In this document: in pieces, positions 24,083 to 36,659 of the stretch | Position numbering within the stretch: the first letter of the stretch is position 1 | Layout of the letters: every line of letters begins with the position of its first letter | Assembly (NCBI GenBank): GCA_017511645.1 | Contig: JAFWJH010000007.1 | Span: forward strand, 1 to 50,937 | Origin: Candidatus Saccharimonadota bacterium | Lineage (GTDB): Bacteria > Patescibacteriota > Saccharimonadia > Saccharimonadales > Saccharimonadaceae | Direction of reading: 5' to 3' | DNA: 50,937 nt | Made by a program: the position numbers and the translations under genes | Notes under the pieces: model-generated | Database searches by the model: none | Told to the model about the DNA's origin: nothing | Seen by the model: the letters and a program-made list of their open reading frames with translations, nothing else

Positions 24083-24736
24083 CTAATATTGCCTACAAGT
24101 AGTCTCCGAATCCTCGAGAGTTTCCTGTACTTTGTCGGCAATTTCTTGCGCAGACATACTATCGGTTCCATAACTCCAAACTATTTCACTCACACCTTCT
24201 TCATCATATTGCATTGTGTATTTTACATTATCCCCCTCCGTATAGCTATAATCAAAAACACAATGTTCTTCACAGTGTCTCTTATACTGATCCGTCAATT
24301 TATCTACCATTTCTTTTTCATGATCTTTATAGCTATCTCTCATGGTCTTTAGATTCACATTTATCGTCATATCTCCACTTGATATTTCGCCATCTTTGAC
24401 CTGGACATTAGTTTCTCCAGTTATAGTAATACCCATAGTCGTCGTGTTCATAGAGCAAGCAACCGTTTTTTCACCATTTTTTTGAAGAAATATCACTAGC
24501 AAAACTACCATTAGTGCAGCTAAAACGGCGCCACCAGTCACGCACCCGATAATCAGGTTCCGCTTCTTTTTGTTATTTTGCCATCCACCAGCTGTAGTAT
24601 TTGTTATTGTTGGATTCATTACCACTTGCTGGTCCATTATTGGTTGACCTATAGTCTGTTGCGGCGCTGACGAGATCGCCGGCGTCGTCTGATTGGAGTT
24701 TTGCGTCCCGCCTATCATTGAATTGTCATTGTTCAT
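24083..24736 (-). CDS. Membrane-anchored hypothetical protein with extracellular Cys-rich domain
   Basis: 217 residues from the ATG at 24736, which has AAAGGA 6 nt before it; an in-frame ATG at 24763 has no such site and overlaps the gene upstream. The first about 60 residues are Asn/Gln/Thr-rich and cytoplasmic. A membrane helix follows Lys-Lys-Lys-Arg (about 62-84), then an outward domain starting with 'VACSMNTTTMGITITGETNVQVKDGEI' and four further Cys. The pattern of a small domain with a 'YTMQYDEEGVSEIVW' strand recalls YehR/DUF1307-type lipoproteins, but I would not name it. It shares an operon with the gene at 24747-25376. Confidence 0.55.
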   Translation of the reverse strand: MNNDNSMIGGTQNSNQTTPAISSAPQQTIGQPIMDQQVVMNPTITNTTAGGWQNNKKKRNLIIGCVTGGAVLAALMVVLLVIFLQKNGEKTVACSMNTTTMGITITGETNVQVKDGEISSGDMTINVNLKTMRDSYKDHEKEMVDKLTDQYKRHCEEHCVFDYSYTEGDNVKYTMQYDEEGVSEIVWSYGTDSMSAQEIADKVQETLEDSETTCRQY

Positions 24737-24746
24737 ATAATCCTTT

Positions 24747-25376
24747 CTATTTTGATAACTCAATTATTAATTTGATAATCATTATTGCTATAGCAATGGA
24801 AGATAACACAATGGCGGCAATAGCTTTTCCTTTTTTGCCAGATTTCAAACCCTGGGCAGCGAGATAATAGTTAAAAATTACTATGATTGCGCCCACCGCT
24901 ATGCCGGCAAAAGAAACCACCAACATTAATATTGAAACCCAAAACGAGATTTCGGCGTAATTATTATTTCTTTTTTCGTTAGCTTGCCTAAACTCACCGT
25001 AGGTATTCTGTTGTGTAACTTGTGTAGCCGATTGCTGTGGTTGGCTAGATTGGGTATTGCTACCTAGCGCTACTAGTAATGGCTCTAGCGCATTTCTGTA
25101 TGGGATAATTGCCATCGCTCCAGCTATGCCGTCCGACAACGCTATGGGTTTTTGGAATGAACCAAGATACGCGTAAATTGCCACCTGGTCTCCATTGATA
25201 CTATATTCAAAAAATCGGCGTCCCACTATGGCGTCGCCGCCACGATAATACACGATATCGCCTTCCTGCATTTTTTGAAATTGATTAACAGACAACCAGG
25301 ACTGGATTTTTTGTTCTGTTTCTTGGTTGTTTTGAATGGGGAAACGGTATTCTGTTTTTCCGCTACCTACAAGCAT
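24747..25376 (-). CDS. Hypothetical protein with soluble N-domain and two C-terminal membrane helices
   Basis: 209 residues. The N-terminal about 105 form an unrecognised soluble domain that includes 'EGDIVYYRGGDAIVGRRFFEYS'. A Gln/Ser/Thr linker follows, then two membrane helices (about 143-175 and 188-207) with 'AAQGLKSGKKGKAIAAIVLS' between them, the pattern of DUF4190-like membrane tails. AAAGGAGG stands before the ATG. The 5' leader (25377-25544) is strongly structured, see the separate entry, so expression is probably controlled at the RNA level. Confidence 0.55.
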   Translation of the reverse strand: MLVGSGKTEYRFPIQNNQETEQKIQSWLSVNQFQKMQEGDIVYYRGGDAIVGRRFFEYSINGDQVAIYAYLGSFQKPIALSDGIAGAMAIIPYRNALEPLLVALGSNTQSSQPQQSATQVTQQNTYGEFRQANEKRNNNYAEISFWVSILMLVVSFAGIAVGAIIVIFNYYLAAQGLKSGKKGKAIAAIVLSSIAIAIMIIKLIIELSK

Positions 25377-25544
25377 GTAACCTCCTTTTATTGATTATGC
25401 CTTAAACGAAATAGGACACCGAGCAACGGTGTCTTAAGTCGTTCTTTCAAAAGCAAGTCAATATGCTTGTTTGGCTCGATGCCCTATGCACGGCATATTG
25501 ATAAAACTTATCAGTTTTACCTTGCTTTTGAATAAACTTAAGAC
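25377..25544 (-). promoter_or_regulatory. Riboswitch-like structured leader with a three-way junction
   Basis: On the minus strand, P1 is GTCTTAAGT (25544-25536) with ACTTAAGAC (25439-25431). It is prolonged by TCAAAAGCAAG and its complement (25531-25521 / 25457-25447). P2 is AAAACT/AGTTTT (25518-25503). P3 is TCAATATGC/GCATATTGA (25501-25493 / 25466-25458). The next hairpin GACACCG-ttgct-CGGTGTC (25433-25415) shares GAC with the 3' strand of P1, so the two cannot form together. The -10 box places the transcript start exactly on the first base of P1. Confidence 0.6.
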
Positions 25545-25550
25545 AATTTA

Positions 25551-25580
25551 ATCATATCACACTTTTAGTGACTAACGCAA
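25551..25580 (-). promoter_or_regulatory. Promoter of the structured leader
   Basis: On the minus strand TTGCGT (25580-25575), 18 nt, TGA-TATGAT (25556-25551). The start 7 nt on falls at 25544, the first base of the leader stem. Confidence 0.6.
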
Positions 25581-25593
25581 AAGGAATGCTGTA

Positions 25594-26460
25594 CTATCTT
25601 TTATTCCTACTTTCGATCTCTTGCAATTCAAACCTATACTTTTGTTCTACTTTTGGGTATTTCTTGTGGTCGACTTTTTCTACGAACATTTCGTACGGGC
25701 GCACGTATAATTTCTCGTCCCCATATAGCGCTCGGTAGGAAACCAATTTCTCTCCAGTCTCACTGTGGTAAGCTACATCTTCCACTAGGTATAAGTCACC
25801 TTTAAAATGCCGATAGATACCATGGATTTTCACTCCGCGCGAGGCTGCAATGCCGTCTGCCTTTTTTGATTTTTCTCCAACAATTTTTCTACACAGCACC
25901 CACACCACCATAGACCCCACAAAATTGCCCAGCGCACAGAATAGAACTGTCCAACTAAACATCATCGCCACCCCCATTGTGACTACATTAGCAATCGAGT
26001 GTTGAAACCCACAAAAAATAAACAGCGGTACCCCGATTAATATTCCCAGCTTAGATCCCCTCCTGTACAAATCTACTGCAATATACATAACAGCCCCGCA
26101 GCCCACCGCATTTAAGAAAAACTCTGCACTCATGTCCCATTTTGCGACCTTCGCCATAGCTACCTCTATTATAGTTTCATCCATCAGACTAAAAATCGCC
26201 CCAAATGCGTAGCCAAATATCAGATTGATCGCCAAAATTATCATTAAATCTGAAAGTTTCATCTTGTCTTCTACAAAAAAACCGCATTTACCAGTAAAGA
26301 GATTTAACCCCATCATACATACGCCTAAAAGCCCTAGCGAGAACAGAAACGGGCCCACTGGCTCGCCCATTTTGAGCAGTACGAAGTCGCCTAGACCTAT
26401 CAGTAGGCTTGCCCCTGCCGACAGTCTCACTAAGTTCAAATAACGCCAACTTTTTATCAT
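25594..26460 (-). CDS. Formate/nitrite-transporter-like protein fused to DUF1653
   Basis: 288 residues in two parts. Residues 1 to about 205 have six hydrophobic helices and FNT-family marks: '[19 protein letters not shown]', '[11 protein letters not shown]', '[12 protein letters not shown]'. FNT channels pass formate, nitrite, hydrosulfide or lactate as pentamers. Residues about 212-280 match DUF1653 ('[46 protein letters not shown]'), normally a small free-standing cytoplasmic protein. The fusion is continuous with no internal start. GGAGGTGAT precedes the ATG. The cargo is unknown, and the tail may regulate the channel. Confidence 0.75.
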
Positions 26461-32628: not shown

Positions 32629-32634
32629 AGTGGC

Positions 32635-32971
32635 GAGCCCGAAAGGCGGCCGCTTTTTATAAGAGGAAAGTCCGGGCAACATAGAGCAGGGTAGTCGCTA
32701 ACAGCGACCGTCCGTAAGGATAGGGAAAGTACCACAGAAACTTATACCGCCCCGGTTTACCGGAGCAAGGGTGAAAAGAGTGGGGTAAGAGCCCACAGCG
32801 CGCTGTAGCGATACGGTGCGGAGGCAAACCCTACCTGTTGCAAGGAGTGCTAATAACCTTTGCTCGAGGATGCACGCTCACCGCTAGAACGTTATAGCAA
32901 TGTAACGTCAAGATAGATGGTCGCCGACTATATATTATATATAGTCACAGAACCCGGCTTAGTGAACGCTC
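32635..32971 (+). ncRNA. rnpB: RNase P RNA, class A
   Basis: Conserved core elements can be read: GAGGAAAGTCCGGGC near the 5' end (32663), the AGGGTGAAA region, the GAGGCAAACCC segment, and ACAGAACCCGGCTTA near the 3' end (32947), which closes P4. P1 pairs GAGC at 32635 with GCTC at 32968. This ribozyme trims tRNA 5' leaders. The 3' end is followed by a bidirectional terminator. Confidence 0.95.
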
Positions 32972-32976
32972 ATATC

Positions 32977-36306: not shown

Positions 36307-36659
36307 GGGGCTGACAAAGCTTAGACGAATTGTTAACAGTCATGAGGCGTGCCGATTAAATACCGTAAGTATTAATAAGTGCTAAAAACACGAAAACTGC
36401 GCATGTTGCATACATGCCAGCATATGCCTAATTATTTGTAGGCTGGTTTTGGTCTAAGGTTTCGTAGGGCCAAAATTATCATACAACGAAAATAAGGCTA
36501 TCGTCGCGGCGAGCGATAGCTCGAAAATTTGCTACGGCTTTTAGCAGTTTCGTTTTCTGCAGCTGCTAATTATTGCCAAAATGAAACAGAAAACTACACA
36601 CGTAGAATCATGGCCAAGTGACAGTCCGGACGGGGAGGCAGTATCCCCCAGCTCCACCA
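36307..36659 (+). ncRNA. ssrA: tmRNA
   Basis: The acceptor stem is GGGGCTG (36307) with CAGCTCC before an encoded ACCA end (36659), including one G-T pair. The tRNA-like T arm reads near 36622. The tag reading frame starts at GCT 36381: A-K-N-T-K-T-A-H-V-A-Y-M-P-A-Y-A then TAA (36429-36431). It rescues stalled ribosomes and marks the peptide for proteolysis. The extended -10 box TGG-TAAAAT is at 36291-36296. Confidence 0.93.

Follow-up and report, generated by a model that had tools for sequence, protein, structure and literature searches.

Structured 5' domains that stand directly before a gene, with bases of the closing helix P1 common to an intrinsic terminator and the two folds mutually exclusive, are known from terminator-controlling riboswitches. 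T-box leaders offer terminator and antiterminator as alternatives, pT181-type antisense-controlled attenuators carry a 5' pre-emptor that sequesters the 5' arm of the terminator, and switches of the PreQ1/SAM-II type contain a pseudoknot with A-rich connecting segments. The leader described here shares each of these traits. It lies on the minus strand of a 50,937-nucleotide stretch of DNA from a Candidatus Saccharimonadota bacterium, called the window below, and belongs to a family of leaders that differs from all four systems. Unlike terminator-controlling riboswitches, the family has variable arms and no established aptamer core or ligand, its loop is itself a partner of the terminator 3' arm, over 9 to 18 bp, and its genes encode surface, membrane and restriction-modification proteins. 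The pT181-type attenuators are not known to have the extra loop-to-terminator pseudoknot, and the present leaders are chromosomal and multi-copy, with no antisense transcript identified. Compared with PreQ1/SAM-II-type switches the leaders are much larger (85 to 170 nt across the family for the domain closed by P1), the pseudoknot serves as the putative antiterminator helix, and Rfam has no match to them. A T-box assignment was rejected: the loop strand has a superficial likeness to the T-box sequence (it reads UGGGCACCG in some members), but there is no conserved UGGN (these positions covary with the terminator 3' arm), no Stem I with a specifier was seen, and Rfam returned no T-box match.

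The preliminary description of this locus had not recognised a known class, and the searches agree. Against Rfam 15 the window leader gave no match at the gathering threshold in a strict search and chance-level matches only in a permissive one, and 16 homologous loci gave none at the leader, the RNase P and LOOT RNA matches falling elsewhere in the loci. The open-licence literature contained no description of such a leader class. This is apparently an undescribed RNA family with no tested member in Rfam.

The minus-strand leader 25544-25377 folds with an energy of -53.8 kcal/mol, compared to -30.5 ± 3.3 in shuffled sequences, and none of 200 shuffles was as stable, so that the proposal of a real structured leader stands far beyond chance. 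Its predicted first base, 25544, is base 1 of P1 and lies exactly 6 nt beyond an extended -10 reading TGTGATATGAT; this spacing recurs in 73 of 86 homologous leaders. The three bases that end P1, GAC, also belong to the hairpin at 25433-25415, and P1 and hairpin are therefore mutually exclusive, as had been supposed, with the Shine-Dalgarno and then the ATG of gene 1 (at 25376) following. The three-way junction of about 114 nt fared less well: the P1-closed domain of the window leader is indeed 114 nt long, but P2 and hence the junction are optional among homologues, many of which have a single long hairpin, and the junction is for this reason not a conserved feature. P1 encloses at least two hairpin loops in 48 of 71 leaders from a first set, and it encloses a single loop in 41 leaders of a second. 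P1b is represented in homologues by equivalent helices of different sequence. The most informative interaction was missing from the preliminary description altogether, namely the pairing of the P3 loop (25487-25474) with 25424-25411.

Coordinates of the leader and of the genes behind it, in window positions
Feature	Position	Strand	Basis or remark
Extended -10 box TATGAT with TG upstream	25551..25556	(-)	sequence; ends 6 nt before P1 base 1
Whole leader element: P1 domain, hairpin and tail	25400..25544	(-)	covariance model R1 E 8e-26 (window sequence among R1's own building sequences); R2 E 2e-20; fold z -7.2
s1, P1 5' strand GUCUUAAG, predicted transcript 5' bases	25537..25544	(-)	P1 pairing and covariation
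P1b 5' strand (inner part of long stem), partner 25446-25457	25521..25532	(-)	fold
P2 hairpin, family-optional	25501..25520	(-)	fold; missing or different in many homologues
P3 stem with large apical loop L3	25459..25500	(-)	fold
s2, L3 sequence AUAGGGCAUCGAGC, putative antiterminator/pseudoknot strand	25474..25487	(-)	14-bp complement of s4
P1b 3' strand	25446..25457	(-)	fold
P1 3' strand CUUAAGAC; GAC common to terminator 5' arm	25431..25438	(-)	sequence, fold, covariation
Terminator-like hairpin GACACCG-UUGCU-CGGUGUC (s3:s4)	25415..25433	(-)	terminator scan; arms conserved in homologues
s4, terminator 3' arm and tail start GCUCGGUGUCCUAU, s2 partner	25411..25424	(-)	pairing, covariation
Tail CUAUUUCGUUU 3' of hairpin	25404..25414	(-)	sequence; U content below most homologues
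Shine-Dalgarno AGGAGG	25381..25386	(-)	sequence
Gene 1, 209-aa protein, C-terminal hydrophobic region	24747..25376	(-)	no confident Pfam match
Gene 2, 217-aa single-TM protein	24083..24736	(-)	no confident Pfam match

Protein homologues of gene 1 occurred in only 3 of 151 genomes of the family and offered no route to related leaders, which were recovered by DNA and covariance searches instead. At the DNA level, 100 genomes of the window's genus yielded two relatives that were almost complete, along with several fragments of the 3' part. These relatives stand before quite different genes, and the conserved unit is therefore the leader and not the gene. A covariance model built from 11 leaders (R1, E ≤ 1) matched 62 of 174 genus genomes, often several times each, and a second model built from 71 leaders (R2, E ≤ 0.01) matched 54 of 247 genomes in 35 of the 132 sampled genera of the order. 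A sample of the phylum added one further genome of that class and four that lie in other parts of the phylum, and most of these have the same anatomy. Where contigs with the leader are named, they belong to Saccharibacteria, and several come from ruminant guts. Pattern matches examined on virus contigs were mostly to one primase-like phage coding sequence without the remaining anatomy, and a match of the L3-core pattern also fell in a phage coding sequence; both were set aside as chance.

Related leaders abound in compensatory changes, both in P1 and between s2 and s4; the preliminary description had named such changes as the deciding check. An s2:s4 match of 9 to 18 bp was present in 90 of 90 leaders (14 bp in the window copy), with a mean score of 32.7 that fell to 14.6 ± 2.7 when the upstream sequence was shuffled and to 20.9 ± 5.4 when the arm was taken from another leader. 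The s2:s4 pairing is 95% in helix 1 and shows 117 double-change cells against 37 in shuffles, with slid controls all far lower; the search models were seeded with s2 and s4 sequences, and the s2:s4 helix was absent from the alignment's search model. For P1, which is part of the model and whose counts are biased towards it, the genus set showed 99.5% of cells paired and 140 double-change cells (40 in shuffles). In the second set, 68 leaders mostly from other genera, 98.1% of cells were paired for the stored structure and 99.8% for P1 alone, with 188 double changes against 43 in shuffles. The terminator arms GACACC and GGUGUC show little variation, with a concerted two-sided change at two pairs in a few members.

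Conservation is also seen around s2, which is often preceded by an A run (AAA). An AA(A/G)CA-type motif follows it in 44 of 121 leaders where 8.6 were expected, mostly at a distance of 4 to 6 nt; it is commoner in the second set and weaker inside the genus. In leaders from beyond the genus, conservation of the loop core is good, with AAAnGGGCACCGnG followed by AAACAGU. The window copy keeps the flank motif only in part.

We consider it likely that the leader is a cis-acting transcription attenuator made of four competing strands, with a pseudoknot as its antiterminator. In this model s1 would be the ∼8 nt at the 5' end of the transcript, s2 the loop, and s3 and s4 the 5' and 3' arms of the terminator, giving three possible helices, s1:s3 (P1), s2:s4 (the pseudoknot) and s3:s4 (the terminator). 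P1 and the pseudoknot would be compatible with each other and each would exclude the terminator. In the ON state s1:s3 and s2:s4 would both form, the long pseudoknot reaching into the U-rich tail, and the gene would be transcribed in the absence of a terminator; in the OFF state s3 would pair with s4, the end of P1 would open and the polymerase would stop before the gene. The pairing, conservation, covariation, shared bases, promoter spacing and gene association come from sequence comparison; we infer that the hairpin would terminate transcription in vivo and that P1 together with the pseudoknot would be the ON state. An alternative fold that excludes the terminator is supported by covariation, and the helix energies, when summed, were in favour of P1 with the pseudoknot and not of the terminator in 89 of 89 leaders, the pseudoknot energy being a helix sum that ignores loop and topology costs.

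In most members a predicted intrinsic terminator, the hairpin with a U run behind it, precedes the gene (mean of 5.2 U in the 8 nt past the stem). In the window copy the stem is followed only by CUAUUUCG, and its tail CUAUUUCGUUU is a weak one by the standard of intrinsic terminators; termination here may thus be inefficient, or the copy may work in another way. A second element, either a copy resembling s2 or a tandem hairpin, is present in 36 of 138 leaders where 11 were expected. The s2-like copy, GUGGCACCAC, recurs between terminator and start codon, 20 to 50 nt past the terminator, in Fib_succ_major leaders (for example L149, L150, L151, L110, L136, L191, L197 and L206), and it could compete for s4 once read-through occurs. 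Six leaders of EcoRI-type or N6 methyltransferase genes (L069, L071, L072, L073, L076 and L159) have a second, tandem-terminator-like hairpin resembling GACACC...GGUGUC directly after the first, usually followed by a U run. In an N6-methyltransferase subgroup (L065, L064 and L067) a hairpin reaches right to the AUG, its sequence being AUAGAYRCC...GGUGUCUAU or a variant, which suggests additional translational control.

The leader is on the strand of the ORF that follows it, and the start of this ORF is less than 100 nt away in 109 of 134 cases, with a median of 33 nt. The two genes behind the window leader had been described as membrane proteins of no recognised kind, and each does have a hydrophobic TM-like stretch; a relative of gene 1 (51% identity in A5) stands behind another leader, L098, in genome G011. 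The upstream FNT-type channel of the preliminary description (25594-26460, minus strand) is FNT-like and carries a DUF1653 domain in the same chain. Across the family, a TM-like stretch was seen in 96 of 132 products. Recognised families comprise EcoRI-type, C5 and N6 DNA methyltransferases, the surface families Fib_succ_major and Listeria-Bacteroides repeat, and TM2, DUF4352, DUF4190 and OmpA, with a sigma-70 factor and an OLD-type protein among the single cases. The leader before the sigma-70 family factor (L120) may place the switch atop a wider cascade in that genome.

The association with Fib_succ_major genes is strong and not universal. In G056, a 0.8-Mb genome in which 39 leaders were found, 30 of 39 such genes have one; in G085 the count is 12 of 27. 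The window's genome has five leaders, those of 4 of its 7 Fib_succ_major genes and, as the fifth, the window leader. A check for leaders missed before ten leaderless Fib_succ_major genes gave a single weak extra candidate. Among the families listed by a scan for defence systems, almost all were DNA methyltransferases, with one OLD-type protein besides, and the label of a defence regulon was rejected for the whole family since it holds only for this subset.

An effector would bias the choice between the two folds, probably by recognising the pseudoknot and its A-rich flanks (AAA before s2 and AA(A/G)CA after it), and one global signal would fit with the large number of unlinked targets in each genome. 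The low variation of the GGCACC/GGUGUC core seems to need another reason for part of its conservation, perhaps this effector. A small molecule or ion is a plausible candidate short of being probable, and we hold a protein in the same regard; control by transcription or folding kinetics with no dedicated ligand is unlikely, and a trans RNA more unlikely still. With arms so variable, a large classical aptamer is less likely. The conserved loop flanks are compatible with a small aptamer formed by the pseudoknot, or with a site for a protein.

The preliminary description had read the locus as an aptamer with an expression platform. This reading is supported in part: its switch logic and promoter coupling hold, and a strict riboswitch with a metabolite aptamer is possible and rather doubtful. 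Sequence and topology of the arms vary strongly; it is the switching strands and the surrounding loop that contain the conserved nucleotides. A true metabolite or ion riboswitch, in which the pseudoknot and its A-rich flanks would be the aptamer and the ligand would hold P1 and pseudoknot against the terminator, is a narrower version of the four-strand attenuator. The conserved loop core outside the genus, the excess of motifs after s2 and the coupling to a terminator all agree with it, but with P2 dispensable, the flank motif only partial in the window copy and the genes belonging to no one pathway (surface proteins, DNA methyltransferases, small TM proteins, a sigma factor), we regard it as possible and rather doubtful. 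We are similarly reserved about an antitermination leader controlled by an RNA-binding protein that would sit on the loop or terminator strands in the manner of BglG or LoaP and govern a surface-protein and restriction-modification regulon. Conservation of GGCACC, GACACC and GGUGUC beyond the needs of pairing would fit such a protein, as would the many unlinked targets per genome, which are typical of a trans-acting regulator; however, no candidate regulator has come to light, and the coupling of four strands could by itself account for the conservation.

Two readings would take the leader out of the control of its genes. A mobile inverted-repeat element, such as a MITE-like sequence or an IS end, with a chance promoter could explain the long palindromic ends and the several related matches at contig ends, where repeats often fall. 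The DNA of the window leader is single-copy in its own genome, however, a DNA-level search there returning itself and chance matches only and no near-identical dispersed copies; the family's copies diverge nearly everywhere save in the pairing strands, where changes are compensatory, and they lie in one orientation just upstream of genes at a fixed promoter spacing, all of which makes this origin very improbable. A trans-acting small RNA of ∼130 to 150 nt ending at the hairpin, with the downstream genes incidental, would account for the highly structured, terminator-ended transcript expected from each copy and for the s2-like sequences that a subset has past the terminator, ahead of the start codon. 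It is an improbable alternative given the close same-strand gene starts and given that the covariation of s2 is with the s4 belonging to the same leader.

Gene regulation in Patescibacteria is very poorly known. One RNA architecture here stands before up to ∼39 genes of a 0.8-Mb genome, with enrichment for surface, small membrane and DNA methyltransferase genes, which face the host bacterium and phages. As a tentative broader reading, which we rate as an open chance and not as the expected outcome, this may be a new, Saccharibacteria-wide class of riboswitch-like attenuators, with an antiterminator pseudoknot of a new kind anchored at transcript base 1, that coordinates dozens of surface-protein and restriction-modification genes per genome to one signal, e.g., contact with the host or attack by phages. 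Were the RNA architecture confirmed, it would rank as a dominant regulatory device of these epibionts and as a candidate for an orphan riboswitch class, one whose consensus is clear. Tools for inducible expression, which the group lacks, could then perhaps be built on it. Inducible expression is needed, and riboswitches have been proposed as a means to it (PMC11665869).

Other structured RNAs were also observed. The window itself contains an RNase P class A RNA gene at 32634-32976 (+) and a tmRNA gene at 36307-36659 (+). In a genome of the same family, a LOOT RNA (RF03000, E 4e-12) lies at L162:2743-2860 (+), ∼1.1 kb downstream of a leader.
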